Origin: Ruficoccus sp. ZRK36
GTDB taxonomy: Bacteria > Verrucomicrobiota > Verrucomicrobiia > Opitutales > Cerasicoccaceae
DNA: 64,000 nt
NCBI RefSeq assembly: GCF_019603315.1
Contig: NZ_CP080649.1
Coordinates: 2,862,176 to 2,926,175 of the forward strand
Reading direction: 5' to 3'
Shown: in pieces, positions 26,996-53,934 of the stretch
How the letters are laid out: each line of letters begins with the position of its first letter
How positions within the stretch are numbered: position 1 is the stretch's first letter
Notes under the pieces: generated by a model
Database searches by the model: none
What the model was told of the DNA's origin: nothing
The model's input: the letters and a program-made list of their open reading frames with translations, nothing else
Made by a program: the position numbers and the translations under genes

Positions 26996-27580
26996 ATGGT
27001 CGCCGTCAACTCTACCATGCTGCCCCTCGGCACACCCGCTCCGGCCTTTCACCTGCCCGACACGCAGGGTAATGTGGTTTCCCTGGAAGCCTTCGATGGG
27101 GCGCGCGCCTACGTGGTTATGTTCATCTGCAACCACTGCCCGTATGTGCGCATGCTGCGTCGCGAGATCGCCCAGCTGGCCTCCGAGTATCAGGACAAGG
27201 GCGTGGCACTGGTCGCGATCAACAGCAATGACGTGGAGAACTACCCGGACGACAGCATGGACAACATGCGTGATGAAGTCGCTCAGCAGGGCTACAGCTT
27301 CCCGTATTGCCAGGACGAGACGCAGGACGTCGCCAAGGCCTACCGGGCCTCGTGCACACCGGACTTTTACGTCTTCAATCACGAGCGTCTGCTGGTGTAC
27401 CGCGGCCAGTTTGACGACGCTCGTCCCGGCAACGGCATCAACGTGACCGGCTCGGATCTGCGCGCTGCGCTCGATGCTGTGCTCGACGACGAGGAAATCC
27501 CCGACGATGTCCAAAAGCCCTCCATCGGCTGCAATATCAAGTGGAAGCCCGGCCAGGAACCGGACTATTTCCGGAAGTAG
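26996..27580 (+). CDS. Thioredoxin-fold peroxiredoxin-like protein
   Basis: A 194-residue redoxin. Residues about 44-51 read CNHCPYVR, the CxxC-type site of a thioredoxin-fold subfamily with an AhpC/TSA-like core (APAFHLPDTQGNVVSLEAFDG). There is no signal peptide, so it acts in the cytoplasm. The C-terminus has the family phrase PSIGCNIKWKPG. The start at 26996 (MVAVNSTMLPLGTPAPAF) is preferred to one at 26909. It is divergent from serS, and the substrate is unknown. Confidence 0.85.
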   Translation: MVAVNSTMLPLGTPAPAFHLPDTQGNVVSLEAFDGARAYVVMFICNHCPYVRMLRREIAQLASEYQDKGVALVAINSNDVENYPDDSMDNMRDEVAQQGYSFPYCQDETQDVAKAYRASCTPDFYVFNHERLLVYRGQFDDARPGNGINVTGSDLRAALDAVLDDEEIPDDVQKPSIGCNIKWKPGQEPDYFRK

Positions 27581-27738: not shown

Positions 27739-30550
27739 ATGTCCACTCTCTATACCGTCGATACGCGCGAGTTCGCGCGCCCGTTCTCGCCCCGTCTCGA
27801 CGGGAGCGACCCCGAAGCCAAACGCGAGGAGATCCTCAACTACTTTCACGCCACCTATGATGCCTACGAGGCGCTTTTTGAGACCCTCGCCAGCCCCGAG
27901 GCCTACACCACGCGCGCCGATCCGCTGCGCCACCCGTTGATCTTCTACTACGGGCACACGGCGGTCTTTTTTATCAATAAGCTCGTGCTCGGGAAAATCC
28001 TCGACCACCGGCTGGACCCGAAGCTGGAGTCGCTCTGCGCGGTCGGGGTGGACGAAATGAGCTGGGACGACCTCAACGAGGCCCACTACGAGTGGCCCGC
28101 GCCCGAGGCGGTCAAGGCCTATCGAGATAAAGCCCGCGCCGCCATTGACGGGCTGATCCGCTCGCTGCCGCTCACCTTGCCCATCGGCTGGGACAGTCCC
28201 TTCTGGATCATCCTGATGGGCATCGAGCATGAGCGCATCCACCTGGAGACATCCTCGGTGCTCATCCGGCAACTGCCGCTGGACCTCGTCCAAAAACACC
28301 CGGCCTGGGAGCCCGCACGACTCGACACCTCGCCGCCCGCTAACGAGTTGCTACCCGTGCCCGGCGGCACGGTGCATATGGGGAAGTCCCGCCAACAAGG
28401 CAAGTTCTACGGCTGGGACAACGAGTACGGCTCACGCGAGGTCGAGGTGGCAGACTTCAAGGTCAGCAAGTATCTCGTCAGCAATGCCGAGTTTCTGGAA
28501 TTCGTCGAGGACGGTGGCTACTCTAAGCAGGAATACTGGACCGAGGAAGGCTGGAACTGGGTGACCTACGACGGCCATGGGATGCCGCGTTTCTGGCGAC
28601 ACGCCGAGGACGGCGAGTGGCGACTGCGCTGCATGCTGGAGGAGATCGAGATGCCCTGGTCCTGGCCGGTGGAGACGAACTATCTGGAGGCAAAGGCGTT
28701 CTGTAACTGGAAGAGCGTCCAGACGGGCCAGCCCATTCGCCTGCCCACCGAGGAGGAGTGGTACGGCCTGCTCGACTACACCGGCACCCCGGATATGGAC
28801 GGGTGGGGCGACACAGCCCCCGGCAACCTCAACCTGAACGAAGCCGCCTCGTCCGTCCCCGTGGATCGGCATGCCTTCGCACAGGGCTTTTACGATGTCC
28901 TGGGGAATGTCTGGCAGCACACCGAAACGCCCATCGCGGGCTTCCCCGGCTTCGAGGTGCACCCGCTCTACGACGACTTTTCGACGCCGACCTTCGACAC
29001 GCGCCACAACATGATCAAGGGCGGCTCGTGGATATCCACCGGTAATGAGGCTACCCGCGAATCCCGCTACGCCTTTCGGCGGCACTTTTACCAGCACGCC
29101 GGTTTCCGCTACGTGGAGTCGGACGCCGAGGTTGTCATCCCTGACGATCGCTACGAGACCGACCCGGATGTGGTCCCGTATTGCGAGCAGCACTACGGCC
29201 CCGATGCACTCGGGCTGGAAAACTACCCGGAGAAAATTGCCCAGCTCTGCCTCGACGCGGTGATCGGGCGTTCGCGTGGACGCGCCATGGAGCTCGGCTG
29301 CCGAGATGCCCTGGTCCTGGCCGGTGGAGACGAACTATCTGGAGGCAAAGGCGTTCTGTAACTGGAAGAGCGTCCAGACGGGCCAGCCCATTCGCCTGCC
29401 CACCGAGGAGGAGTGGTACGGCCTGCTCGACTACACCGGCACCCCGGATATGGACGGGTGGGGCGACACAGCCCCCGGCAACCTCAACCTGAACGAAGCC
29501 GCCTCGTCCGTCCCCGTGGATCGGCATGCCTTCGCACAGGGCTTTTACGATGTCCTGGGGAATGTCTGGCAGCACACCGAAACGCCCATCGCGGGCTTCC
29601 CCGGCTTCGAGGTGCACCCGCTCTACGACGACTTTTCGACGCCGACCTTCGACACGCGCCACAACATGATCAAGGGCGGCTCGTGGATATCCACCGGTAA
29701 TGAGGCTACCCGCGAATCCCGCTACGCCTTTCGGCGGCACTTTTACCAGCACGCCGGTTTCCGCTACGTGGAGTCGGACGCCGAGGTTGTCATCCCTGAC
29801 GATCGCTACGAGACCGACCCGGATGTGGTCCCGTATTGCGAGCAGCACTACGGCCCCGATGCACTCGGGCTGGAAAACTACCCGGAGAAAATTGCCCAGC
29901 TCTGCCTCGACGCGGTGATCGGGCGTTCGCGTGGACGCGCCATGGAGCTCGGCTGCAAGGTCGGGCGCACCGCCTTTGAGCTGGCAGCGGAGTTTGATCG
30001 CGTGCTCGCGCTCGACCCGACCGCCCGCACGATACGTATCGGTGTGGAGATGACCGACAAGGGCTACACCCAGTGGGAGATCCCCCGCGAGGGCGAGCTG
30101 CTGGACTTCCGGCAGGCGAACCTGCAGGACCTCGGGCTGGACGGCTCGCGCGGCAAGGTCGAGTTCATGCAGGCCGACCTCTCAAATATGAAGGACCTGT
30201 ACCGTGGCTTTGACCTGATCCTCGTCAGCAACCTGTTGGAGCGCTCCTACAACCCGGCCAAGTTCCTCGAAACTGTCCATGAGCGGCTCAACGAAGGCGG
30301 ACTGCTGGTCATCGCCTGTACAAATGCGTGGAGCGAGCAGTTCACGAAAAAGGAGAACTGGATCGGCGGCTACAAGGACGCCACCGGCGAGAACGTCTCC
30401 ACCCGTGACGGGTTAGGAGCGCTGCTGAAGAACTTCCGTGAGTTTCGCGAGCCGGTCAACGTGCCGCAGGCGATCCGCCGCAGTGGCCGCACCTGGGACT
30501 ACGCGATCTCCGAGGTAACCTTCTGGGTGCGTGATCGCACTGGACATTAA
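27739..30550 (+). pseudogene. ovoA: OvoA-type 5-histidylcysteine sulfoxide synthase / methyltransferase, disrupted by a tandem duplication
   Basis: OvoA makes the first steps of ovothiol from histidine and cysteine. An N-terminal DinB-like domain carries the iron-site motif EHERIHLE near residue 164. A formylglycine-generating-type domain follows, with LPTEEEWYGLL, NVWQHTETP and IKGGSW. A SAM methyltransferase domain ends the gene (MELGCKVGRTAFELA). An exact 655-bp duplication (28647-29301 and 29302-29956) shifts the frame, so the first reading frame ends at 29361 after 540 codons and the rest is out of frame. Removing one copy restores a single 718-residue frame. Either the gene is broken or the assembly is wrong here. 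Confidence 0.85.
28647..29956 (+). repeat. Perfect 655-bp tandem duplication inside ovoA
   Basis: Units 28647-29301 and 29302-29956 appear identical base for base. The junction sits at a CGAG shared by both ends. 655 is not a multiple of three, so the duplication breaks the frame. Confidence 0.95.
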
Positions 30551-30629: not shown

Positions 30630-31004
30630 CTATGACCGGGTGGCGATGACTTCGATTTCGACGAGAGCGTCCTTGGGGAGGCGGGCGACCTGCACGCAGG
30701 AGCGGGCGGGCTTGTGCTCACCGAATGCCTCGGCGTAGATAGCGTTGAGCTTACCGAAATCCTCCAGATCCTTCAAATAGACGGTGACCTTGACCACCTG
30801 GACAAATGACAAGCCAGCGGCTCCCAGCACGGCACCGAGGTTTGCGAAGACCTGGCGGGCCTGCGTCTCGATGTCTTCACCGACCATCTGGCCATCCTGC
30901 CCGAGCGCAATCTGGCCGGAGCTGTAAAACCAGCCATCGCAGGAGATGCCCTGGCTGTAGGGGCCGAGGGCCTTGGGAGCGAGATCGGTGTGAATGCTTT
31001 TCAT
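30630..31004 (-). CDS. ridA: RidA family enamine/imine deaminase
   Basis: A 124-residue small trimeric enzyme type that hydrolyses reactive 2-aminoacrylate and related imines. Typical features are GPYSQGI near the N-terminus, [20 protein letters not shown] and the C-terminal [23 protein letters not shown], containing the conserved Arg and Glu. Length and motifs are as usual. It appears monocistronic. Confidence 0.92.
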
Positions 31005-42569: not shown

Positions 42570-42710
42570 GTGGCGTGACCGCCACGGGTGAGCAAAAGCC
42601 GAGTACAGCTTTTTCAGTAGGGGATAAAACAGTAGATGGTCAGGGGACCTGGCTAGAGCCAGGTCAGCCGGTGATGACGGGAGACCCGCCTTCGGCTGGT
42701 GGCCTCTATT
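42570..42710 (-). promoter_or_regulatory. Phage 1 origin/packaging candidate: 40-bp element plus hairpins
   Basis: Read on the minus strand: a 40-bp block (42671-42710) matching phage 2 at 39/40 positions, 5 bases, then hairpin GACCTGGCTAGAGCCAGGTC (42646-42665), then CATCTACTGTTTT shared with phage 2. Further hairpins follow at 42594-42613 (loop GAGT on the plus strand, TACT on the minus) and 42570-42585 (GTGGCG/CGCCAC). The whole 42437-42790 gap has no gene. Filamentous phages hold origin and packaging hairpins in such a gap. Confidence 0.75.
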
Positions 42711-42790
42711 GGTGGTGGCGAGGCCCAAAGACAGAGAGGCCGAACCCATAGGCCCGACCTCCCCGAATGAACTGCCCAAGTCCCGAACCA

Positions 42791-43123
42791 TCACGCAGCT
42801 GCGAGCGGGTTCTCGACGTAGGGCTTTGCGTCGAACTTCTGCAGGGAGTCCGCACGGATCTTCGAGAAGTTTTTCTGACCGAAGCCCGGAGCAATCACCC
42901 AAATGGCCTCCTTGACCTTGTGGCGGGCACGGGAGCCGGGCTCCTCGATCCCCAGCAGCTTAAGCGCCTCAGGCGTGGCCGGAGCCATAAACGACAGCTG
43001 CGAATCAAAGCCGCTGGCGGCGATGGTGGTCATGATCGAAGCCGGGAACTTACGCCCGTCCTTTTCGGAAGCGGGGGAGTGCTGGACCTCGATGTTTTCG
43101 TCACGGATTACTAACTGTTTCAT
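42791..43123 (-). CDS. Hypothetical phage protein, 110 aa; ssDNA-binding protein candidate
   Basis: A soluble protein (MKQLVIRDENIEVQHSP) overlapping the end of zot by 23 bp and ending just before the origin region. No known motif is recognised. Inoviruses need an abundant small ssDNA-binding protein (pV-like), and no other gene of suitable size and position stands out in phage 1, so this is a candidate by elimination only. Confidence 0.55.
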   Translation of the reverse strand: MKQLVIRDENIEVQHSPASEKDGRKFPASIMTTIAASGFDSQLSFMAPATPEALKLLGIEEPGSRARHKVKEAIWVIAPGFGQKNFSKIRADSLQKFDAKPYVENPLAAA

Positions 43124-44291
43124 TTTCTTTGAGTAGTTGGATTGATTTTGGTTGGCCCAGCTGGTCTGCAGCCGGGAAAGTTTCCTGTGGCGGGATATAG
43201 GTGTAGACCTCGCCAGCGATCAGCGCGGTATTGTCGGCACGTCGGAAGCCCCCAAAGTCCGGGTGGCTCTGGCTGATCTGGCGACCGTCCCCAAGACGGA
43301 TAGACACAAAGTCAAAGGTGCAGTAACCGAGCTGGTCCGCTCGCTGCACCGGTAAGGCCTTGGCTCGGCCCATGAACGAAACCGAGACAATCGAGCGGTC
43401 CGGTTTTTCCGATTTGGGAATTTGCGCTTCAGCAATATGTTTAACGTCAGCCACTTGAGGTTTCGTCGAATCCTCAGCTGAGATTCCAACCGGTGCAGGC
43501 GTCGCTAGAGGCTCGGAGTGTGATTGACCGGCAAAGAGCATCCCGGCCCCGGCCATGGCTCCCCCGTAGACCAGACGACGCACCCAGCGTTTGGAGGTCC
43601 GCTTAATGATGTCGGCCCGCGTCAATGGCCGCTCGACCTTCTTGAGCTCGATCTGTGGCTTGGAGGCGATGACCTCTAAAGATTTCGACTGGATGTCATG
43701 CGAGACATAGAGCCGATAAATGAACTTCTGTTTCCAGCGCCACGCGGAGTCATATTTGAGCTTCGGGTTGCGGGCGTCCACCTCGGCCCAAATATACATG
43801 GGCAAGGGTAATCCGATCCCCAGCCATTTGATTTTCTGCAGGTCCCGAAACCACATGACGCTTTGCGCCTTTTTGCGGATTTGCGCTAAAATATCGTGGA
43901 AGTCATGCGAGATGAAAACCGTGTCGATAAAGAGCTTTCGAGCGTGAGCGATCATCTCCAAGACGGCCCGGTCCATCTTCTGTTTGTCCATCGTGTTATG
44001 CGACAAACCGGCCTCGTCGATAATCAGTTTATTGGGCTTATCTCGCTCACCCTTGACCAGCAGATCGACAAAGGACGATGCCCGCTCGGGGTCAATGTGA
44101 ACATATTGCTTATCGTCCAGGATCAGGTCTTTTTCGTCTTCGAAGTAGTATTTGATCCGATCCCAACGCAGTTCAATGTTGGTCATGACGATAGCGCCAC
44201 GCTCCAACGTCTCCAGGATTTCAACAACCCCGTGGTAGGATTTATAACTGCCGAGCGTACCGGCAAAGACTCTGAAGATTGCGTCTTTCAT
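43101..44291 (-). CDS. Zot/pI-like phage assembly ATPase, phage 1
   Basis: A 396-residue inner-membrane assembly motor. It begins MKDAIFRVFAGTLGSYKSYHG; the Walker A position reads GTLGSYKS, with Tyr where Gly is usual. Walker B is KLIIDEAG. A span lies near residues 240-256 (LVYGGAMAGAGMLFAG), followed by a periplasmic part, the standard pI layout. The ATG at 44291 overlaps the previous stop as ATGA and is chosen over a start 7 codons upstream. Confidence 0.88.
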   Translation of the reverse strand: MKDAIFRVFAGTLGSYKSYHGVVEILETLERGAIVMTNIELRWDRIKYYFEDEKDLILDDKQYVHIDPERASSFVDLLVKGERDKPNKLIIDEAGLSHNTMDKQKMDRAVLEMIAHARKLFIDTVFISHDFHDILAQIRKKAQSVMWFRDLQKIKWLGIGLPLPMYIWAEVDARNPKLKYDSAWRWKQKFIYRLYVSHDIQSKSLEVIASKPQIELKKVERPLTRADIIKRTSKRWVRRLVYGGAMAGAGMLFAGQSHSEPLATPAPVGISAEDSTKPQVADVKHIAEAQIPKSEKPDRSIVSVSFMGRAKALPVQRADQLGYCTFDFVSIRLGDGRQISQSHPDFGGFRRADNTALIAGEVYTYIPPQETFPAADQLGQPKSIQLLKENETVSNP

Positions 44292-44644
44292 CCTGAAACA
44301 GTCGGTATCCAAGATTTAACTACACGAACAATGGTCATCACGAACTTGAGGGCGAAAATGACCATCGATAGAGCAAAGATCGTATCCACAGGAATGAACG
44401 TGTTTACGGTGGTCCAGAAGTCGCTTGCCACGGTGTTTAGGTGGTGAGAACCCACTGTTAAATCGAGCCCGGCAATTTCCTCATCCACCCAGAACAGGAG
44501 CTTTTGCAGCATCGACATGCCGAACGAAACCAAGGCATAGACGACGGTCAGAAAGCCGATGACTGGCGCGAATATCAGCTTAATGGGCAGATACAGCTTA
44601 TTCAGCCAACTGATCAGATCCTCGAATCCACCTAGAATGCTCAT
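44288..44644 (-). CDS. pVI-like minor coat protein
   Basis: A 118-residue protein with two or three hydrophobic segments (KLIFAPVIGFLTVVYALVSFG; DTIFALSMVIFALKFVMTIV). Its place between the adsorption protein and zot, overlapping both by 4 bp, is that of gene VI in Ff phages. It would sit at the adsorption end of the virion and in the inner membrane before assembly. Confidence 0.75.
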   Translation of the reverse strand: MSILGGFEDLISWLNKLYLPIKLIFAPVIGFLTVVYALVSFGMSMLQKLLFWVDEEIAGLDLTVGSHHLNTVASDFWTTVNTFIPVDTIFALSMVIFALKFVMTIVRVVKSWIPTVSG

Positions 44645-45939
44645 CCGGCGAACCCTCCGCGAACGTTCTTAATGATCGCCACGGCGAACATGATAATGAC
44701 AAGCGCCTCCTCAAGCAGTCGTATCAACTCAATCGGTTGCGTGTACCCGGACAGATCCAAATCAAAGGCCAACTGAAGCCCCATGAGCTCACCGGCATCG
44801 ATGTTGTAAACGTAGTTGCGACCGGATACAGAGGGCAAAGCCTCCAGCGAAGGAAGCTTACCAATCACGCTATCGACCATCCCGTCAACATTGTCGATGC
44901 CCCCGGTATCGAGGTTATCCCAATCGGGACCGGTTTCGAACTGATCACCAATGATAGATGATCCGTCCCCGGCCTCGCCGATCTTCTCGCCCAGCTCATC
45001 GAGGCCGCCGATGAGGTCTTGCTGATTGGCAATCTGCTCTTCTTGGTTCTCGATCTGTTCATCCTGATTGGCAATCTGCTCTTCTTGGTTGTCTATCTGT
45101 TCATCGAGCTTGTCGTTAGCTGTCTCCTCGATGTTTTTGATTTGCTCCAATTGCGTCACTATGTGGCCGGTGTCATCGGTCGTCACGTTGCCGTCTTCAT
45201 CGGTTACACTAGGTGTATTGCCAGAGGTGCTGCCGCCTGATTCGACCTCAGACGATTCCCACTGATCCACAATCCGTAAGGGGCCTTCGTCAATTTGCTG
45301 GTAAATGCTCATCGTGTACGGCTGATCAGACAAGCCACCTGAAATTGTTGCGCTTTTACCGGGTCCAAGAACAACGGTGCCGGTCTGCGTAGTACCGTCC
45401 TCATAGGTAATTTGCCAAAAGTAAGTCTGGGTCTCGTCGGTGTTATTCGTGATGGTGCCGTGTGCCTCACTCTGTCCTGCGTCGTTATCCGGGTCCGGAT
45501 CAGGGTCGGGGTCCGGGTCGGGGTCCGGGTCGGGATCAGGGTCTGGGGCGTTGGAAAAATGCGCGGTAATTTCCATGGAAACATCACCCGGATTGGTGCC
45601 GTTTCCGCTTAAATAAATATCAAAGGACCATGTGCCATCATCGTTAATGATCGATGTGGACTGGTGGCTCTGCGTGATCGCTGAGTCTACCTGCGTATCG
45701 CCATAGGTAAGAACAACGTTGTCGACGCGTAGCGCGTAATAGCTAGAGGTCGTGTGCCACGTCTTTGTTTCTCCGTCGGAAAAGGTGAATGTTCCACGCT
45801 GCCAATCATCACCCTGAAAATGCTCAACGGCATTCGGGCGTCCGCCGTAATAGCCGTAAGCGTCGACCCTAACGGCTATTGTCTGAGCAGACAATGAGGT
45901 CACCAGACAGCAGAGCAGCAATGGGATCAGATGCTTCAT
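44641..45939 (-). CDS. pIII-like adsorption protein, phage 1
   Basis: A 432-residue exported protein: signal peptide at 1-19; an N1-like domain at about 20-130 (VDAYGYYGGRP, DGETKTWHTTSSYY) shared with phage 2; nine Asp-Pro repeats at 133-151; a second beta domain with TNNTDETQTYFWQITYEDG-type sequence; a heptad coiled coil at about 250-305 (IDNQEEQ IANQDEQ IENQEEQ); and a C-terminal membrane span. This matches receptor-binding, linker and anchor parts of pIII, with an acidic DP linker instead of Gly repeats. Confidence 0.85.
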   Translation of the reverse strand: MKHLIPLLLCCLVTSLSAQTIAVRVDAYGYYGGRPNAVEHFQGDDWQRGTFTFSDGETKTWHTTSSYYALRVDNVVLTYGDTQVDSAITQSHQSTSIINDDGTWSFDIYLSGNGTNPGDVSMEITAHFSNAPDPDPDPDPDPDPDPDPDPDNDAGQSEAHGTITNNTDETQTYFWQITYEDGTTQTGTVVLGPGKSATISGGLSDQPYTMSIYQQIDEGPLRIVDQWESSEVESGGSTSGNTPSVTDEDGNVTTDDTGHIVTQLEQIKNIEETANDKLDEQIDNQEEQIANQDEQIENQEEQIANQQDLIGGLDELGEKIGEAGDGSSIIGDQFETGPDWDNLDTGGIDNVDGMVDSVIGKLPSLEALPSVSGRNYVYNIDAGELMGLQLAFDLDLSGYTQPIELIRLLEEALVIIMFAVAIIKNVRGGFAG

Positions 45940-46070
45940 AGACGTGACCAGAAGATTGCCCAGATAAGGATGATCGTTGCCGCTACCTCAGAGGTCCACA
46001 TGCCCCGCGTTTGCGCATTGAGCGTGTGCATCTGGGGCAGGATTTCCTGCAGGGTTTGGAGTTCGTCCAT
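45936..46070 (-). CDS. Small single-span coat protein candidate, 44 aa
   Basis: MDELQTLQEILPQ leads to one span, VAATIILIWAIFW, and ends SRL. It overlaps the start of the pIII-like gene as ATGA and follows the terminator after the major coat gene. Size and position suit a pVII/pIX-type end protein. It is too short for common gene-finding cut-offs. Confidence 0.65.
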   Translation of the reverse strand: MDELQTLQEILPQMHTLNAQTRGMWTSEVAATIILIWAIFWSRL

Positions 46071-46076
46071 GGCAAC

Positions 46077-46120
46077 AAAAAGCAGGGGAGGGGGCCGGGC
46101 GTGCTTCCGACCCCTCCCCG
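46077..46120 (-). terminator. Terminator after the phage 1 major coat gene
   Basis: On the minus strand GGGGAGGGG pairs with CCCCTCCCC, followed by TGCTTTTTG. Ff phages have a terminator at the same place, which limits expression of the adsorption genes. Confidence 0.75.
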
Positions 46121-46125
46121 GTTGA

Positions 46126-46371
46126 TTAACCAGCGATTGCGCCCCACATCTTCTTGACGAAGCGCACACCCTTGGGCGCAGCCATCAGGACGACCGCAGC
46201 ACCGCCGATAGCCAGACCGGCAGTCAGGATGCCGGAGACTTCACCGCTCAGGCCGTCCGTGATAGCGGAGAGGTCGAGGCCGCCGGCCTCCTGAGCGTTG
46301 GCGATGGTAACACCGCTTGCCAGACCGATACCGGCTGCGATGAGCTTCTTTTTCCAGTTACTGTTTTTCAT
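46126..46371 (-). CDS. Major coat protein (pVIII-like), phage 1
   Basis: An 81-residue precursor. The signal peptide (residues 1-26, ending ANA) is followed by a 55-residue mature helix with an acidic start (QEAGGLDLSAITDG), a span (GLAIGGAAVVLMAA) and a basic end (KGVRFVKKMWGAIAG). This is the standard filamentous coat profile, with basic residues facing the DNA. Confidence 0.9.
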   Translation of the reverse strand: MKNSNWKKKLIAAGIGLASGVTIANAQEAGGLDLSAITDGLSGEVSGILTAGLAIGGAAVVLMAAPKGVRFVKKMWGAIAG

Positions 46372-46392
46372 GATTCCTCTTTCTGTTTGGGT

Positions 46393-46527
46393 TTAACCGA
46401 CAAGGTCCGACGAGGCATCGAACATGCGTTTGAGAAAGCGAATGATAACCTGAGAGGTCCAAACGGCCCCGTAGAATGCCGCCCACTTGGAGACATCCGC
46501 GAAAAAGTCGGCAGCTTCATAAGGCAT
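46393..46527 (-). CDS. Small phage protein with one hydrophobic helix, 44 aa
   Basis: MPYEAADFFADVSKWAAFYG, then AVWTSQVIIRFL and KRMFDASSDLVG. It overlaps the previous gene by 11 bp and lies 21 bp before the major coat gene, where Ff phages encode pVII and pIX. It is a candidate end-cap or membrane protein and too short for common gene-finding cut-offs. Confidence 0.6.
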   Translation of the reverse strand: MPYEAADFFADVSKWAAFYGAVWTSQVIIRFLKRMFDASSDLVG

Positions 46528-46717
46528 GGCCACTCATCCTTTCTATTATCCATTCAGAGCAGAGGGCCGAGACCGTTTGCCCTTGAGACTTAGCCAAAGC
46601 TTTAAGCTGCTTACGCTCGCGATCCGTCAGGACGAAACAGACCGTTTTGTCGCGGGGTTCCGAACGCATAAACATGCGCGGAAGACGGGCAGTGGAGACG
46701 GGCTTGATACCACTCAT
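46517..46717 (-). CDS. RHH/MobC-like small DNA-binding protein
   Basis: A 66-residue basic protein. The core TVCFVLTDRERKQLKALAKSQ, then TVSALCSEWIIERM, fits a beta strand followed by two helices as in ribbon-helix-helix or MobC-like proteins. It overlaps both neighbours, so it belongs to the early operon. It may regulate the phage or assist Rep. Confidence 0.55.
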   Translation of the reverse strand: MSGIKPVSTARLPRMFMRSEPRDKTVCFVLTDRERKQLKALAKSQGQTVSALCSEWIIERMSGHAL

Positions 46718-46923
46718 TGCCCGCCCCCCGTCGAAGGTCCCGACGTTTGCACATCCACAGGGAGGAGCAAAATTTCAGCATCTATGGCCGAAAGGAGTTC
46801 ATCTCGCATAGCCTCTAGAGCACATTCGCCCATGCAGCCGAAAGAATGAGATAGGCCGCAGTGACCCCTGTTCACCTGCTCACGGACGGACTCTAAAGCC
46901 AATAGGGTATTGCGAATGCTCAT
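46714..46923 (-). CDS. Cys-rich small phage protein, 69 aa
   Basis: The first 45 residues are closely similar to the phage 2 protein at 49658-49888: both hold VREQVNR.HCGLSHSFGCMG, then ECALEAMRDELL. The His/Cys set (HCGLSH, GCMGEC) could bind metal. The C-termini diverge. Its start overlaps the 115-aa gene stop. Confidence 0.65.
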   Translation of the reverse strand: MSIRNTLLALESVREQVNRGHCGLSHSFGCMGECALEAMRDELLSAIDAEILLLPVDVQTSGPSTGGGQ

Positions 46924-47267
46924 GACTGAGACTCCTCCTCAATTTCCCTATAGTCCGAATCATCGAACGGCGGGACGACAAACCCACGAGAAACCTCAAG
47001 CCCTGTATTCAAGAGGCATTCAATCACTACTGCGTCTGACGGATCATGCAACCGGGCAAGAACAATTCCGTCGCCCGCCGCGCTTGTATCTAAATTGATC
47101 TCACAGAAGTGCCTCCTATCAGGATCACCCGCATCTGGCTTCATGGGGCCGTAGACGCCGAAGCGATAAATCTTTGATAATGGAATGCCGCTGACGGCAG
47201 CTTCTGGCTTGTGAGAAAAAACAGAGCAGCGCCCCGTGCGGGCAAAGAATTTATGCAGAATGCTCAT
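46920..47267 (-). CDS. Early phage protein shared by both prophages, 115 aa
   Basis: It is nearly the same as the phage 2 protein at 49111-49458: about 105 of 115 residues match by direct comparison, and the DNA is also very close. It starts MSILHKFFARTGRCSVFSH and ends in an acidic tail. No known fold is recognised. It begins right after a 28-bp leader that phage 2 also carries. It is the most conserved protein between the two phages. Confidence 0.75.
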   Translation of the reverse strand: MSILHKFFARTGRCSVFSHKPEAAVSGIPLSKIYRFGVYGPMKPDAGDPDRRHFCEINLDTSAAGDGIVLARLHDPSDAVVIECLLNTGLEVSRGFVVPPFDDSDYREIEEESQS

Positions 47268-47295
47268 TTTCGGTTCCTTCGGTTGAGTGGTTTGT
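47268..47295 (-). promoter_or_regulatory. Conserved 28-bp early leader, phage 1
   Basis: On the minus strand ACAAACCACTCAACCGAAGG followed by AACCGAAA, directly before the ATG. It is identical at 48839-48866 in phage 2. It includes the ribosome site GAAGGAA and may be a promoter-leader or a binding site for a translational repressor. Confidence 0.65.
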
Positions 47296-47330
47296 TGACG
47301 TTTGAAAAGCTCTTCTCTAATCCGTTATAG

Positions 47331-47831
47331 ATGCTCTACATCATCATCGGATTGGCCGTAATAATGGGCGTGGTCGCCGTTCTCGGGGAGTTGCTCAAAA
47401 AGGAGAAAGGCCCACCTAAAGCTGACCTTGCAGAATCCCGCCACTGGCTGCTGACAAAGCATGAATGCGTGCTGTTTGATCTGCTAACGCAGTGCTTACC
47501 CGAGGGCATGCACATCCATAGTAAGGTTCGCTTGGCCGACTTAATCCGCTTAAAGAAAACGCAGGACCGTAAAGCATACGGCTCGATGCGGGCCCGTACG
47601 GACCGGAAACACGTCGATTTCGTAATCACGCGAGGATCTAGCGAAATAGCCTTTGCGGTCGAACTGGACGACTCGTCGCACCAGAGAGAAGATCGAAAGC
47701 AGAGAGACCAATTCGTTGATAGCGTTTTCAGCGCGGCAGGAATACCGCTGATCCATGTTATCGGAGACGCTAGCAAGATGACCCCAGAGGAAATCCGGGC
47801 TAAACTGCCATTAATGCCGCCGAAGCTGTAA
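47331..47831 (+). CDS. DUF2726 nuclease-like protein with N-terminal membrane anchor
   Basis: A 166-residue protein: one span (LYIIIGLAVIMGVVAVLGEL), then a DUF2726 domain with KVRLADLIRLKK, HVDFVITR and AVELDDSSHQREDRKQRDQFVD, followed by GIPLIHV. The Asp...Glu-x-Asp pattern fits a restriction-endonuclease-like core, though activity is unproven. It is transcribed toward att2, opposite to the main phage operon, and has no counterpart in phage 2. Confidence 0.75.
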   Translation: MLYIIIGLAVIMGVVAVLGELLKKEKGPPKADLAESRHWLLTKHECVLFDLLTQCLPEGMHIHSKVRLADLIRLKKTQDRKAYGSMRARTDRKHVDFVITRGSSEIAFAVELDDSSHQREDRKQRDQFVDSVFSAAGIPLIHVIGDASKMTPEEIRAKLPLMPPKL

Positions 47832-47887
47832 GGCGTCTCTGCTTGTCTAGGTGTCATCAGTAGGGTGGCGAGGTTAACTTAGATGTT

Positions 47888-47933
47888 AGGCGTACATCAG
47901 CCTTATGTATCGAGACTGGGCTTACATACGCCT
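47888..47933 (+). promoter_or_regulatory. Imperfect inverted repeat before the phage 1 RHH gene
   Basis: AGGCGTACATCAGCC and GGCTTACATACGCCT are 12/15 inverted copies. TTGACA at about 47947 follows downstream. It is a candidate operator for autoregulation of the RHH gene at 47998. Confidence 0.45.
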
Positions 47934-47997
47934 GACGTAAAGCAGATTGACAATTACTCCCTATAGTATAAGCCTCACTGAACTGATGCCGGGAACC

Positions 47998-48150
47998 ATG
48001 GGTAAAGACTCGGCCAAGATTCAAGTAGTCGTGGACAAGAAATTCAAAAAACGCATCGAAGAAGCCGCCCGCAGGGACGGACGTTCTGCCTCCAACTGGA
48101 TGCGTTTTCTTGCCGAACGAGCACTCGAATCGATGGCCCCCAAGAGCTGA
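47998..48150 (+). CDS. Ribbon-helix-helix regulator, phage 1
   Basis: A 50-residue protein starting MGKDSAKIQVVVDKKFKKRI, with RSASNWMRFLAERALESM as the second helix. It resembles Arc/CopG-type repressors and the RHH proteins at 39712 and 48273. It ends in a terminator just before att2. A longer in-frame start at 47947 lies in the promoter region and is not used here. Confidence 0.75.
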   Translation: MGKDSAKIQVVVDKKFKKRIEEAARRDGRSASNWMRFLAERALESMAPKS

Positions 48151-48186
48151 CCGTTAAAGGGATTGAGCCGTTTAACGGGATTTTTT
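48151..48186 (+). terminator. Terminator after the phage 1 RHH gene
   Basis: CCGTTAAA pairs with TTTAACGG over a 12-base loop, followed by GGATTTTTT. Confidence 0.8.
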
Positions 48187-48197
48187 AAATACCGTAT

Positions 48198-48225
48198 AAT
48201 TCGCACAATAAATATTATGTCTAAA
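48198..48225 (+). other. att2: complete dif-like Xer site between the prophages
   Basis: Arms AATTCGCACAA and TTATGTCTAAA surround TAAATA. The layout is like E. coli dif (XerC arm ending CATAA, six-base centre, XerD arm TTATGTTAAAT). The left arm is shared with att1 and the right arm plus TTATTGC with att3. It is therefore the only site in the window with both arms intact. Confidence 0.8.
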
Positions 48226-48272
48226 TTATTGCGCTGGTTTTTCAGGGTTTAAGGAATCCCCTAACCCGTTGG

Positions 48273-48440
48273 TTACGAAGCCTTTTTAAGGCGCTTCTCC
48301 ACTTCTTCGCGAACAAGCAAGGCAATCCACTGCGACATTGTGCGGTCTTCCTTGGCCGCAACTTCACGCACTTTGGCCTTCAATTCCTTGCTGATAATCA
48401 CGCCGATATGGTCTGAGTCTTTGCCTCTGCTACCTGACAT
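48273..48440 (-). CDS. Ribbon-helix-helix regulator, phage 2
   Basis: A 55-residue protein: MSGSRGKDSDHIGVIISKEL, then RTMSQWIALLVREEVEKRL. It shares the G-KDS start and the R..S.W helix with the other two RHH proteins, but faces the opposite way, converging on att2 with the phage 1 copy. It is a likely repressor of its own divergent promoter region, which holds a perfect inverted repeat. Too short for common gene-finding cut-offs. Confidence 0.75.
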   Translation of the reverse strand: MSGSRGKDSDHIGVIISKELKAKVREVAAKEDRTMSQWIALLVREEVEKRLKKAS

Positions 48441-48490
48441 AATGTTAGGTACCCTTATACGTTTTTAAATAGGAGTCAAACAGATTGACC

Positions 48491-48530
48491 GGCGTCTTAT
48501 GCCATCTCATAGTCAATGGCATAAGACGCC
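48491..48530. promoter_or_regulatory. Perfect 15-bp inverted repeat, candidate phage 2 operator
   Basis: GGCGTCTTATGCCAT and ATGGCATAAGACGCC flank ten bases. It lies 51 bp upstream of the RHH start with TTGACC beside it. A two-dimer binding site for the RHH protein is the natural reading. Confidence 0.65.
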
Positions 48531-48567
48531 ATCAGATGAAGCTCAATCACCAGAAACGACTCTCCCC

Positions 48568-48756
48568 CTACTCGGGCCGCTTCGTCTCGTCATCAGCTTT
48601 AAATCGTCCCTGTAGGATTTTCTGTCCCTTCCGTGCGTTGGGTAGAATCAAGAACTTCGCGACAAGGAACATGACTGTTCCGGCGAATAAGAAGACTCCG
48701 ACGACAAGTCCGATCATCAATTTCCAAGGGAATTCTGGGCTTACAATTTCATGCAT
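48568..48756 (-). CDS. Small single-span membrane protein, 62 aa
   Basis: MHEIVSPEFPWK leads to one long span, LMIGLVVGVFLFAGTVMFLV, then a basic/acidic tail. It lies between the RHH operator and the early genes, on the same strand as the RHH gene. It has no counterpart by sequence in phage 1. It could act in immunity or superinfection exclusion, but nothing shows this directly. Confidence 0.5.
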   Translation of the reverse strand: MHEIVSPEFPWKLMIGLVVGVFLFAGTVMFLVAKFLILPNARKGQKILQGRFKADDETKRPE

Positions 48757-48838
48757 GGCTAATGGCGTGATTAATGGGTTCCGTAGGCTGCTACCTGCGG
48801 GGCCTTACTTTTACCACTCTGTAATACGTTAGGACAAG

Positions 48839-48866
48839 ACAAACCACTCAACCGAAGGAACCGAAA
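48839..48866 (+). promoter_or_regulatory. Conserved 28-bp early leader, phage 2
   Basis: Identical to 47268-47295 of phage 1 on the opposite strand. Here it precedes the 82-aa gene rather than the 115-aa gene. Confidence 0.65.
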
Positions 48867-49114
48867 TGACCACCGAGACAAGAAACCTAATTCTGAGATT
48901 ACGCCGTAATGCGGCTTCAGCTCTCCGCGAGTTTCGCGCATGTGAACGAACAAACGATAGGGATTTAGACTATAGGGAAGGCATCCACTTCGGATCGTAC
49001 TCCGGCTTTAGGACTGCGGCAGCCATGCTCGGGGACTCCAAGATTCAATCGATACCTCTATGGCGGTCGCTTCGCTGCCGCAAGTTCAAGTCCAAGGGAA
49101 AGGCCGTGGCATGA
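48866..49114 (+). CDS. Hypothetical early phage protein, 82 aa
   Basis: A basic soluble protein (NLILRLRRNAASALREFRACER) ending in a Lys/Arg-rich tail. It is the first gene of the rightward operon and overlaps the 115-aa gene by 4 bp. No phage 1 counterpart was seen; it appears inserted between the shared leader and the shared 115-aa gene. Confidence 0.6.
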   Translation: MTTETRNLILRLRRNAASALREFRACERTNDRDLDYREGIHFGSYSGFRTAAAMLGDSKIQSIPLWRSLRCRKFKSKGKAVA

Positions 49115-49458
49115 GCATTCTACATAAATTCTTTACCCGCACGGGGCGCTGCTCTGTGTTCTCTCATAAGCCAGAAGCTGCCGTTAGTGGCGTTCCACTG
49201 TCAAAGATTTATCGCTTCAGCGTCTACGGCCCCATGAAGCCAGATGCGGGTGATCCTGATGGGAGACACTTCTGTGAAGTCAATTTAGATACAAGCGCGG
49301 CGGGGGACGGAATTGTTCTTGCCCGGTTGCATGATCCGTCAGACGCAGAAGTGATTGAATGCCTCTTGAATACAGGGCTTGAGGTTTCTCGCGGGTTTGT
49401 CGTCCCACAGTTCGACGATTCGGATTACAGGGAAATTAAGGAGGAGCCCGAGTCATGA
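49111..49458 (+). CDS. Early phage protein shared by both prophages, 115 aa
   Basis: Counterpart of 46920-47267, with about ten substitutions, several conservative. It starts MSILHKFFTRTGRCSVFSH. The ATG at 49111 is used because it matches the phage 1 protein exactly; the frame opens earlier. It overlaps the genes on both sides. The function is unknown. Confidence 0.75.
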   Translation: MSILHKFFTRTGRCSVFSHKPEAAVSGVPLSKIYRFSVYGPMKPDAGDPDGRHFCEVNLDTSAAGDGIVLARLHDPSDAEVIECLLNTGLEVSRGFVVPQFDDSDYREIKEEPES

Positions 49459-49661
49459 ATATTGAACCCAAATATTCCTGCGAGGCTGAATACCAGAAAC
49501 GTCTGGACGACGCGGTAGCAGAGTTGAGTTTTGCTGTCGAGCACGAGGAAATTTGCGTACGAGAGTTCATGGGCGTCTGTGCATTTTGGGGCGTACTCCC
49601 CAGCGCGGTATTTCGTGAAATTGAGGCCAAAGAAGCGAAAGCAGATGGGGGTGAGTCATGA
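49455..49661 (+). CDS. Hypothetical early phage protein, 68 aa
   Basis: A helical acidic protein (YSCEAEYQKRLDDAVAELSFAVEHEE) with no recognised motif, overlapping both neighbours by 4 bp. It is absent from phage 1, where the 115-aa and Cys-rich genes are directly joined. Confidence 0.6.
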   Translation: MNIEPKYSCEAEYQKRLDDAVAELSFAVEHEEICVREFMGVCAFWGVLPSAVFREIEAKEAKADGGES

Positions 49662-49888
49662 GCACGTGCAATGCCCTATCGGCTTTGGAAGCTGTCCGTG
49701 AGCAGGTTAACAGGGTTCACTGTGGCCTATCGCATTCCTTCGGTTGCATGGGTGAATGTGCTCTAGAGGCTATGCGGGATGAACTCCTTGTGTTCATTGA
49801 AACTCAAATTTTGCTGTATCCGGCAGACCCTTCTAGCGGGCTGGCATCGGTTCGTCGGTCCGCAAGTGGTAACGGGGGTGAGGCATGA
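49658..49888 (+). CDS. Cys-rich small phage protein, 76 aa
   Basis: The N-terminal 45 residues match phage 1 46714-46923 closely (VREQVNRVHCGLSHSFGCMG). The C-terminal part differs and is Ser/Gly-rich. It is the last early gene before the origin region. Confidence 0.65.
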   Translation: MSTCNALSALEAVREQVNRVHCGLSHSFGCMGECALEAMRDELLVFIETQILLYPADPSSGLASVRRSASGNGGEA

Positions 49889-50025
49889 ACTCTGCTCATA
49901 CGTGTCTCACCCCTCAATCGCTGCTCGCGGTGTTGCCTCGCCGCAAGTCGCCGGTCCGCTTCCGTCGTGATACCTTGGCCTATCGCCTCCGTCTTGCTCG
50001 TTGGCGTCTTGTGACACTCACACTC

Positions 50026-50187
50026 AATAGAGGCCACCAGCCGAAGGCGGGTCTCCCGCCATCACTGACTGAACAAGCTTTAGCTTGTTCCCCTGCTCTA
50101 TCTACTGTTTTTCCTTTTGAGCCTGATTTATCAGGCTCCCCACTCCTCCCGCCATCCACCCACTTGCAAGGCTGTACTCAGCCTTGC
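50026..50187 (+). promoter_or_regulatory. Phage 2 origin/packaging candidate: 40-bp element plus hairpins
   Basis: The 40-bp block at 50026-50065 matches phage 1 at 39/40 positions. Five bases later comes GAACAAGCTTTAGCTTGTTC (50071-50090), then TATCTACTGTTTTT shared with phage 1, hairpin GAGCCTGATTTATCAGGCTC (50119-50138), and GCAAGGCTG/CAGCCTTGC with TACT loop (50166-50187). Apart from a doubtful open frame over 49885-50238, 49889-50234 is non-coding. Confidence 0.8.
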
Positions 50188-50234
50188 CCGCTAGAACACT
50201 TTGGGACGGCGAAGCGGACCAAAGGGGGGCGAGC

Positions 50235-51272
50235 GTGAGCAAGCCCCATCAAAGTCCCCTACTCCATCCTTCGCAACGGTCTAATCCGGTCGCATGTGTC
50301 GAAGCTAAGCAGGAGAAGGAAGCGCGTCGGGCACGGCTCACGGCATGGCGCTATCCTCCCGAATGTGAGCCCCAATATGATGATCCTTTCTGCACAAATG
50401 AGATTCGACAATCCGCTATCCGTCAGCAATTGGAAGACTTCGAATCTGACTCTGATACTCGTGAGGTTATCCTTACACGCTATGAGCCTGCGAACTGGTG
50501 GACCTCTTACGGTGCGAAAAAGAAGCTCAAAGAAATCGAGAAGAAGGGCATCCCTAATCTAACCGATTCTCGTTTTATTACCCTCACCTTTGACCGGGAG
50601 CGCTATCCCGATCCTGATCGCGCTTTTGAAATCGGCAGGGAGCATATTCGCAAATTCATGATGCTCCTTCGCAAGTATCTTGGTGTTACTGAAGACGAAT
50701 GCCCCCACGCGACAAAGCTGGAAGTGCATGAAGACGGTTGGCCGCATTTTCATATCCCATTCCTTTACCGCAAAAAGTTCTCCTACGAGACTATGCGCTT
50801 CATTCATGAGGCATGGGGCAAAGGCCGTACTAACGTCCGTCGCATCAAAGGTGCCACTCTCGAATATGCGCTTAAGTATGTTACTAAATTTGTGGACCTC
50901 CCCGAATGGATTCTAAACCGCGTGAGAATCCGCGTATGGCAGCCCTCGCCGCATTTTTATACCAATTGCGCCCCCATTTCTAGGCGTCCTCCCGCCGGAA
51001 AACATAAAACGCGTAAGGAAGAAAAATCCCCTACGATTGGAGAGAGAATAGTGAACTGGGGGCGCTCAATTTCTGTTCGCTACACTGACGGTAAGCACTC
51101 CCGGCGATACCGGGTTTATAGCAACACTGGCTTCACTGATCTTCTGGTACGCGAATCCGTTGAAATGCTTTCGGGCAATGAGCATGTCAAAATCCGCTCT
51201 GCCCATGAACTAGTAACTACACAAGAAAGACTAAACCAATGCCTAACGAATCAAAGCCTACAAATGAACTGA
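50235..51272 (+). CDS. HUH-type replication initiator, phage 2
   Basis: A 345-residue rolling-circle Rep. The metal site is GWPHFHIPF (His-x-His near residue 170), and the helix LEYALKYVTKF near 209-219 carries the Tyr and Lys, in the same form as phage 1 (EYASKYVSK). Elsewhere the two Reps are hardly alike. The GTG at 50235, preceded by AAAGGGGGGC, is chosen over an upstream TTG at 50184, which lies in a hairpin. Confidence 0.85.
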   Translation: MSKPHQSPLLHPSQRSNPVACVEAKQEKEARRARLTAWRYPPECEPQYDDPFCTNEIRQSAIRQQLEDFESDSDTREVILTRYEPANWWTSYGAKKKLKEIEKKGIPNLTDSRFITLTFDRERYPDPDRAFEIGREHIRKFMMLLRKYLGVTEDECPHATKLEVHEDGWPHFHIPFLYRKKFSYETMRFIHEAWGKGRTNVRRIKGATLEYALKYVTKFVDLPEWILNRVRIRVWQPSPHFYTNCAPISRRPPAGKHKTRKEEKSPTIGERIVNWGRSISVRYTDGKHSRRYRVYSNTGFTDLLVRESVEMLSGNEHVKIRSAHELVTTQERLNQCLTNQSLQMN

Positions 51273-51559
51273 CTGCACCTCTGGCCGTAGGGTCAGCCTT
51301 TATTGAAGGGATTGTTCTCCAAACAGAGACAATCAAGGGTATCACTCGCAAGGAAAAGGGCGAACGCCCTTATCATTTGCAAAAGACAACGCTCCTGTGT
51401 CACGGCAAGCCTGTTGTCATGACAGAGTCTCGTCGGGGTGACGATGGCCCTTTGCCTCCGATTCCGGTCCAAGGCTCTGTACGTCGTTTTTCGATTACTC
51501 CTAGCATGCAGGACAATGGAATTCTCTGCCTCAACGGTGCTCTCGAATCGAAAATCTGA
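51239..51559 (+). CDS. Probable ssDNA-binding protein, 106 aa
   Basis: A soluble, mostly beta protein (GSAFIEGIVLQTETIKGITRK; QKTTLLCHGKPVVM) directly after rep and overlapping it by 34 bp. Size, beta content and position suit a pV-like ssDNA-binding protein that coats the phage genome. No sequence identity to known pV is evident by eye. Confidence 0.6.
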   Translation: MPNESKPTNELTAPLAVGSAFIEGIVLQTETIKGITRKEKGERPYHLQKTTLLCHGKPVVMTESRRGDDGPLPPIPVQGSVRRFSITPSMQDNGILCLNGALESKI

Positions 51560-51631
51560 CGCGCCCGAGTGCTGTACAGGCCGCTTGCGGCCTGTGCGGC
51601 ACGGGCGCGGCCCCTTTCCTTGTTAAAGGGG
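51560..51631 (+). repeat. Large cruciform before the phage 2 coat gene
   Basis: CGCGCCCG/CGGGCGCG encloses GTGC/GGCAC and ACAGGCCGC/GCGGCCTGT (51560-51609); a second hairpin, CCCCTTT/AAAGGGG, follows (51611-51631). It may terminate the replication operon or serve complementary-strand synthesis. Confidence 0.7.
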
Positions 51632-51729
51632 CATGTTAACTGTGGATAACTGCCCCTGTATTTAGAAATCAATACACTTTCGGCCATGTGGCCGGGAAAC
51701 GAAAACAAAACCATCAAACTACTGAAACA

Positions 51730-51960
51730 ATGCATAAAATCAAAAATATCCTGAGTGTTAACGGCATGAAGCGCGCCTACCTTATCGGTGGGGGTACTGT
51801 TTGCATGACTGCTGCTGCACATGCTGAATCTGCCGATCCCCTTGGCGATCTTCAGAACGGTATCGACGGCGCCACCGGCATCGGTATCACCGTCGCCGGT
51901 GTGGCGGTCACGGTGTTCCTGATCAAGATGGCTATGAAGTTCGCTCGCAAGGGCTCTTAA
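51730..51960 (+). CDS. Major coat protein (pVIII-like), phage 2
   Basis: A 76-residue precursor. The signal region ends AHA at residue 32, leaving a 44-residue mature helix: acidic ESADPLGDLQNGIDG, a span GIGITVAGVAVTVFLI and a basic end KMAMKFARKGS. The start MHKIKNILSV is preferred over one 14 codons upstream. The profile is that of phage 1, without clear sequence identity. Confidence 0.88.
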   Translation: MHKIKNILSVNGMKRAYLIGGGTVCMTAAAHAESADPLGDLQNGIDGATGIGITVAGVAVTVFLIKMAMKFARKGS

Positions 51961-51974
51961 TCGTCAATCGTCTG

Positions 51975-52010
51975 GCCGGAGGGGTATTCCCTCTCCGGCT
52001 TTTATTTCTT
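51975..52010 (+). terminator. Terminator after the phage 2 major coat gene
   Basis: GCCGGA/TCCGGC stem followed by TTTTATTTCTT, at the same relative place as in phage 1 and in Ff phages. Confidence 0.8.
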
Positions 52011-52015
52011 CTACT

Positions 52016-52204
52016 GTGAAACCTTATATCCTCCGCTTGTTTTTCTGCTTCTGCGCTTTCTTCTTTTTGAGTCTCAGCGTAGAGGCCAGCACTGGGCTAA
52101 TGGTTGCTCCGGCACTGGCGGTCAACTTCGTAACAGAGGCAATTCTATGTTATCTTTCAGGAGCTATTTTACCGGTTGTTTGGTATTTCTTCTGGGTGCT
52201 CTGA
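52016..52204 (+). CDS. Small membrane/coat protein candidate, 62 aa
   Basis: From a GTG start: MKPYILRLFFCFCAFFFLSL as signal or first span, a short polar part, and a second span AILCYLSGAILPVVWYFFWVL. It overlaps the adsorption gene by 58 bp. The place matches the 44-aa gene of phage 1 (45936-46070), suggesting a pVII/pIX-type role. Confidence 0.55.
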   Translation: MKPYILRLFFCFCAFFFLSLSVEASTGLMVAPALAVNFVTEAILCYLSGAILPVVWYFFWVL

Positions 52205-53934
52205 GCCTGTCCGCTCAGACTATCACCGTTAATGTTGACGCATACGGTTACTATGGTGGCCGCCCTAGTACCGTCGAACACTTCCAAGGTGATGACTGGC
52301 AAAGAGGGGCATTTACCTTTACTGACGGGGAAACCAAAACATGGCACACGACCTCTAGCTATTATATGCTTCGGGTTGACAATGTTGTACTTACCCATAC
52401 CGACGCAGCGGTCGATGTGACTGTCACACAGTACGAGCACGACACGTCCTTAGCGACTACTGCAGGTACTTGGTCGTTCAATATTTTCTTTAGCGGTAAC
52501 GGAACAAATCCCGGTGATGTTTACATGTACATTACCGCTAATTATTCTGGCGAAACTACTGACCCCGATCCTGATCCTGATCCCGATCCAGACCCGTCTT
52601 ATCCTGATGGCTTTGCTGAAGTCCATACCGGGCAGTCACAGCAAATTCATAATGGCACAGACGAGACTCAAACTTATGTTTATACTATCGTCTATGAGGA
52701 CGGGACCAGCGAAACGAGACAGGTAGAGCTTGGTCCGGGTGAGTCTTTTACTGTAGGTGCGCAGGATAAGGATCGTGCGTTTAAGATTTACATTTACCAA
52801 TTAGATGAGGGTGATCCTGATCTTGTTTATGATGGAAACTCTACACTTGTGCAGGTCGTAGATAGTGAAGAAAATGACGTGCCATGGCTTGACGATGATA
52901 TATCGCTCAAGAAAACGGATTCTAACGGTGATGTGACAATTGTGCATGACAACGATATTGAGTCTGAAGATAGAACAACGGTCGTTGATACCCTCACGCT
53001 GGACGAAAATCAGGAAGCAAGACACAAAGAAGCCCTTAAACAGCAAGACAGTCTCTGGAACTCCCAGAAACAGGAGCACGATCAAACACAGGCTAAGCTC
53101 GACATATCCAATTCAGAGCTATCAAACATTGACGGTACTTTAGGTGAAATTAGCCAGTCTCAGCAGGAAACGCGTGATGCTCTTTATGGTACTGAGGAAG
53201 ACGGTTCTGAAAGTAGTCTGTGGGATAAGGTCAAGAAGTTGGTTAGTTTCTTCTTCCCTGACGACGGGGATACCAATGACTATGATTCAATGTCAGACGA
53301 TCTTGTCTCTGACGGCGAAAGCTATGGTGATGGCTTGGCCGAAGGTTGGGACAATTTGAGCCCGGGCTCTGTTGGTGGGTCTGGTAGTGCTGATGGAGAC
53401 TTTCAAGTCGATATTGCTGGGTTTGGCATTATCGACTTCAACCCTATGACGGCCTTGCCTCCGTCGCTTGTGACGGCCGCGACTATTGTCCGTGAGGTCA
53501 TTCTCTGGCTTATCGTTGTTTGGTTCATCGTTGACGGTATCAAGATTGTGAGAGGTGAAGTCCCAAACTGGTTCAAGGTAATTCCTGCACCTCCTGTCAC
53601 TGGTCCTGAGAATGTTGTCCCTCTAGCTCCACAAATCAAAACTTGGACTGTTGGCGCTGCTGTTATGGCCATCTTCGTTGTCTTGGCTGGCGCGTTGATC
53701 GGGTATTTAGACAGTCGTGTAGGCACTTTGTCTGACGGCAGTATGGATATTATGTCAGCCGTTACGGCTAATGTTCAATTCACCGGCCCATTAGGGCTGG
53801 CTTATGATTTCATGGATATGTTTTTGCCTCTGGCCGCTATCTTTAAGACTGCAACGGTTCAAGTCGGCATGCTGGCTATCGCCTTCGTTTCTGGTCTTAC
53901 CGGTAATGCCATCGGTCGCACTGTAAACTTTTAA
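52147..53934 (+). CDS. pIII-like adsorption protein, phage 2
   Basis: A 595-residue exported protein. Signal peptide at 1-24; N1-like domain at 25-135 strongly alike phage 1 (DAYGYYGGRP, EHFQGDDWQRG, DGETKTWHTTSSYY); six Asp-Pro repeats at 139-150; a beta domain (NGTDETQTYVYTIVYEDGTS) also shared; a helical region at 290-350. The C-terminal 160 residues hold three or four spans, more than the single pIII anchor, and may include a fused pVI-like part. Confidence 0.85.
   Translation: MLSFRSYFTGCLVFLLGALSLSAQTITVNVDAYGYYGGRPSTVEHFQGDDWQRGAFTFTDGETKTWHTTSSYYMLRVDNVVLTHTDAAVDVTVTQYEHDTSLATTAGTWSFNIFFSGNGTNPGDVYMYITANYSGETTDPDPDPDPDPDPSYPDGFAEVHTGQSQQIHNGTDETQTYVYTIVYEDGTSETRQVELGPGESFTVGAQDKDRAFKIYIYQLDEGDPDLVYDGNSTLVQVVDSEENDVPWLDDDISLKKTDSNGDVTIVHDNDIESEDRTTVVDTLTLDENQEARHKEALKQQDSLWNSQKQEHDQTQAKLDISNSELSNIDGTLGEISQSQQETRDALYGTEEDGSESSLWDKVKKLVSFFFPDDGDTNDYDSMSDDLVSDGESYGDGLAEGWDNLSPGSVGGSGSADGDFQVDIAGFGIIDFNPMTALPPSLVTAATIVREVILWLIVVWFIVDGIKIVRGEVPNWFKVIPAPPVTGPENVVPLAPQIKTWTVGAAVMAIFVVLAGALIGYLDSRVGTLSDGSMDIMSAVTANVQFTGPLGLAYDFMDMFLPLAAIFKTATVQVGMLAIAFVSGLTGNAIGRTVNF

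Follow-up and report, generated by a model that had tools for sequence, protein, structure and literature searches.

The ovoA gene of Ruficoccus sp. ZRK36 lies in a stretch of 64,000 nucleotides analysed here (the window) and, in the assembled chromosome, carries a 655-bp segment twice in direct succession. This arrangement raises the question of whether the repeat is a mutation of the sequenced clone, a device that switches ovothiol synthesis, or an error of the assembly. The earlier note on this DNA left a choice between a very recent mutation and an assembly error, and that choice is supported by the present analysis: the finding is an ordinary mutation, or else an assembly error. On balance the best explanation, favoured over an artefact, is that the sequenced clone underwent one spontaneous tandem duplication very recently; a real mutation of any kind, counting variants in which the split gene functions or switches, is more probable still.

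An exact tandem duplication with a blunt junction

The two copies are the same base for base, as had been claimed, and the run of identity at an offset of 655 coincides exactly with the borders of the unit on either side (Table 1). A DNA search of the organism's own 3.76-Mb genome placed the unit at two sites only, C1:2890822-2891476 and C1:2891477-2892131, and an exact match of this length far exceeds a chance origin. Neither another exact tandem duplication nor a run of N was found in the 1.12 Mb of the genome that was sampled.

Because the length of the identity run equals the spacing of the copies (655 each), the junction is without microhomology. The bases flanking the copies differ on the left (T versus C) and on the right (C versus A), and therefore nothing is shared at the junction; the CGAG at which the copies had been described as joined is simply the tetranucleotide with which the unit opens. 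No imperfect homology was found around the breakpoints, where 7 of 30 positions match, a level that 70% of random pairs reach, and the longest word common to both breakpoints has six bases, a length present in 31% of random pairs. With neither exact nor imperfect homology at the breakpoints, a microhomology-mediated duplication was rejected as a simple mechanism. An origin by a mobile element was also rejected, as the unit has no bounding inverted repeats and the site has no tRNA.

Table 1. Features of the duplicated ovoA gene and of repeats elsewhere in the window (window positions)
Feature	Position	Strand	Content and basis
ORF1, 540 aa	27739..29361	+	complete OvoA N-terminal module, predicted 5-histidylcysteine sulfoxide synthase (DinB_2 + FGE-sulfatase fold)
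ORF2, 424 aa from GTG, or 414 aa from ATG 29306	29276..30550	+	half FGE fold + predicted methyltransferase
Duplication copy 1, exact 655-bp unit	28647..29301	+	spans second half of FGE fold through methyltransferase motif I
Duplication copy 2, read in other frame	29302..29956	+	100% identical to copy 1
Novel junction GGCTGC/CGAGATG, blunt	29301..29302	+	identity run 655 = spacing 655
Unique ovoA tail, remainder of methyltransferase	29957..30550	+	alignment to intact relatives; dN/dS 0.14-0.17
Inverted-repeat pairs	46915-47267 / 49111-49463; 46766-46927 / 49654-49815; nearby pairs within 42641-52448		

Effect on the ovoA reading frame

The gene measures 2,812 nt between its ATG (27739) and the end of its stop codon (30550), and removal of 655 leaves 2,157 nt, or 718 codons and a stop, in agreement with the 718-residue protein previously predicted on deletion of one copy. 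The unit length, correctly described as not divisible by three, is 3n+1. ORF1 scores 671 bits against the sulfoxide synthase model TIGR04344 (model positions 3-444 of 444; curated cut-off 400 bits), so that this module lies above the cut-off within ORF1 itself. It contains the Pfam domains PF12867 and PF03781 and the HX3HXE iron motif in the form IEHERIH, and its closest match among solved structures is the bifunctional OvoA 8khq (655 bits). ORF2 opens with the second half of the FGE fold, continues into a complete methyltransferase module and scores 281 bits against TIGR04345, a putative 4-mercaptohistidine N1-methyltransferase (positions 1-241 of 242; curated cut-off 170 bits). These matches bear out the OvoA-like identity proposed earlier, and to judge by its domains the gene is a true ovoA, in which the two modules no longer share one polypeptide because the duplication has broken the frame.

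ORF1 ends with about 51 residues that belong to the methyltransferase module and then runs out of frame for 19 residues (RDALVLAGGDELSGGKGVL) before it reaches a stop. Alignment with same-genus relatives places the break inside methyltransferase motif I, where the relatives' AMELGC/KVGRTAFEL is replaced by AMELGC/RDALV, and the main product is therefore predicted to lose methyltransferase function while the sulfoxide synthase stays whole. The description of the gene as broken thus holds for its frame and not for its modules: with a full-length sulfoxide synthase in ORF1 and a complete methyltransferase in ORF2, ovoA is, as far as the predicted products go, split and not destroyed. ORF1 may well be active as a sulfoxide synthase, given that natural OvoA homologues lacking the methyltransferase exist. 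The two ORFs overlap by 86 nt. No slippery heptamer was found in this overlap, and programmed frameshifting was rejected on that ground. The ribosome-binding site ahead of ATG 29306 is weak, a Shine-Dalgarno-like GGAG.

Relatives and the age of the duplication

All nine same-genus and same-family genomes compared carry a single intact ovoA frame of 724-764 codons without the duplication, and in three same-genus relatives the gene is uninterrupted and encodes 713-714 residues. In comparison with same-genus genomes, the part of the gene before the junction has a dN/dS of about 0.11 and the tail one of 0.14-0.17, and no second lesion besides the duplication was found in ovoA. Low dN/dS on both sides together with the lack of a second lesion indicates that the gene kept its function until very recently; if real, the duplication is, on these sequence comparisons, very young. 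Independent recurrence was seen in none of the nine genomes, all of them from other species.

Spontaneous duplication as the most likely explanation

In a spontaneous event, illegitimate (non-homologous) joining would have repeated a 655-bp segment within a normal, conserved ovoA in head-to-tail orientation. Because the unit is 3n+1, the second copy would be out of frame, and two overlapping ORFs would take the place of the bifunctional enzyme of 718 residues. The expected products are a sulfoxide synthase truncated at methyltransferase motif I and a methyltransferase bearing a useless half FGE fold. 5-Histidylcysteine sulfoxide would still be made and, with a PLP C-S lyase, 5-thiohistidine too, and N-methylation to ovothiol A would be lost or reduced unless ORF2 is translated. 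The genome contains recA, and RecA recombination between the copies should restore the gene passively. Reversibility by recombination, as put forward in the earlier note, is possible by this route, but any perfect tandem repeat of 655 bp would have it passively, and it is no sign of a switch. We infer the presence of the duplication in the cell, the residual activity and the reversion.

The blunt junction counts against a real mutation, as it is unusual for bacterial duplications. Documented spontaneous duplications and amplifications in bacteria have several bases of microhomology at most junctions (PMC3161906, PMC3411829); microhomology was present in 40 of 40 sequenced junctions of lac amplifications in starving E. 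coli (PMC3161906), and verified Salmonella duplications had at least 11 bp of homology, in a study that selected for microhomology (PMC3411829). Ku-dependent end joining was rejected, as the genome has no Ku.

Assembly quality and the possibility of an artefact

The assembly comprises the chromosome, contig C1 (3,753,088 bp), which is complete as one circular contig, and a second contig, C2 (6,050 bp). The two ends of C1 meet within rpoB with one base too few for an open frame, and rpoB would therefore look frameshifted on circularisation. C2 is a pET-28-type expression vector with a His/T7 tag, aph(3')-Ia (kanamycin resistance), lacI and an RNAI origin, and its insert, on a reading of the translation, resembles a phage tail protein; it is laboratory contamination and not a native plasmid. 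Vector sequences like C2 also stand in PLSDB as "plasmids" of Mucilaginibacter, Aeromonas, Micromonospora and Staphylococcus.

As a contaminant of known sequence, C2 provides an internal control of assembly accuracy. Its alignment to a deposited vector-like plasmid record has no gap and 100% identity over 5,233 bp, and exactly one base is missing at the circular joint of the contig. The idea that C2 lacks the start of lacI was rejected, the contig being merely one base short there. The joints suggest that circularisation cost each contig one base, a systematic off-by-one of the pipeline. When 69 conserved genes (26,800 codons) were checked against a same-genus genome, ovoA was the only one with a genuine frame break; three other split-frame cases, whose weaker piece has 53-56% identity, look like shadow ORFs or upstream extensions. 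A low-quality consensus was rejected on the strength of this frame check and the perfect vector match, and the assembly looks accurate and was probably built from long reads.

An assembly or finishing artefact is nevertheless a possible, if less likely, source of the repeat. The 655 bp would have been written twice, for example where two overlapping pieces were joined without merging their overlap, and polishing would have equalised the copies, the real gene being single and intact. A blunt junction with neither microhomology nor imperfect homology is what arbitrary overlapping ends would give, and the absence of Ku, the intact ovoA of all relatives examined and the occurrence of a single such duplication in 1.12 Mb point in the same direction. 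The same pipeline, moreover, dropped one base at both circular joints and kept a vector contig. Against an artefact stand the closure of the chromosome as a single circular contig and the accuracy of its consensus (gene check and vector match alike). The unit is otherwise unique, so that there is no repeat here to break the assembly graph, and reads long enough to close the chromosome, if such reads were used, should have spanned a 1.3-kb tandem singly. A search of the literature on false duplications in bacterial assemblies returned nothing useful.

A working split gene or an evolved switch

A real duplication that leaves the split gene working, with ORF1 making the sulfoxide and ORF2 supplying the methyltransferase in trans, is improbable. 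That both modules are complete in separate ORFs would permit this, as would the precedents of stand-alone 5-thiohistidine N-methyltransferases of solved structure (OvoM, PDB 9bxl) and of natural OvoA homologues without the methyltransferase (PMC12631010). ORF2 would have to start at GTG 29276 or ATG 29306 inside the overlap. Against this reading, ORF2 opens with half an FGE fold that is likely to misfold, its Shine-Dalgarno signal is weak, and the overlap has no slippery heptamer.

Least probable is an evolved on/off switch, as raised in the earlier note, in which duplication and precise excision recur at the site and phase-vary ovothiol synthesis: a frame-breaking exact repeat and RecA would allow reversion, and the titles of Waite 2001 and 2003 (cited in PMC4022640) indicate phase variation of pneumococcal capsule genes by intragenic duplications, but the duplication occurs in 0 of 9 relatives, its endpoints lack repeats that would cause recurrence, and one genome represents one event. 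As no relative shows the duplication, an evolved switch is unsupported. Just as remote is a reversible alternation of the cell between N-methylated ovothiol and unmethylated 5-thiohistidine, in which only the methyltransferase would be removed and the sulfoxide synthase left whole.

Neighbourhood and ovothiol pathway

The ovoA gene is flanked on one side by an AhpC/TSA-type redoxin gene (26996-27580, same strand) and on the other by a convergent RidA-family gene (30630-31004). RidA-like proteins deal with the products of PLP lyases, and a link of this neighbour to the OvoB step is for that reason conceivable. No dedicated OvoB model was found; a PatB-family C-S lyase at C1:1288561-1289604 (TIGR04350, 453 bits) is only a candidate for an OvoB-like beta-lyase. 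Literature on ovothiol in Verrucomicrobia yielded nothing useful. Elsewhere in the window, long inverted repeats are clustered (353 nt at 92%, 162 nt at 85% and 241 nt at 72%; Table 1), suggesting divergent duplicated genes or the remnant of an element, and short tandem repeats at 45022-45105 and 45488-45547 have 21/42-nt and 6/18-nt units, multiples of three.

Significance and comparison with known systems

If real, the locus is a natural case of an intragenic duplication parting the two OvoA activities, and it could serve to find out whether the cell can do with unmethylated 5-thiohistidine. If the repeat is an artefact, a reference genome has ovoA wrongly marked as a pseudogene. In either case, the assembly could be audited from its own sequence by means of its circular joints, a contaminant vector as accuracy control and the microhomology of a junction.

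In pneumococcal capsule genes, a duplication reportedly costs the gene its frame and precise recombination regains it. By their titles, Waite 2001 and 2003 (in PMC4022640) attribute high-frequency capsule phase variation to duplications in the type 3 locus ORF, cap8E and tts. The ovoA duplication is likewise exact, lies within an ORF and abolishes the frame, which precise loss of one copy could in principle restore; unlike the capsule genes, it is known from one sequence, involves another gene in another phylum with a unit of 655 bp, and its reversion is only predicted. Both modules are homologous to those of OvoA 8khq (5-histidylcysteine sulfoxide synthase / 4-mercaptohistidine N-methyltransferase), but here they lie on two overlapping ORFs owing to the duplication. 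Separated modules are also found in the natural truncated OvoA homologues without a methyltransferase module (PMC12631010) and in the stand-alone OvoM (9bxl), as in ORF1 and ORF2; those, however, are established genes, whereas the present separation is a fresh break in motif I with a nonsense tail.
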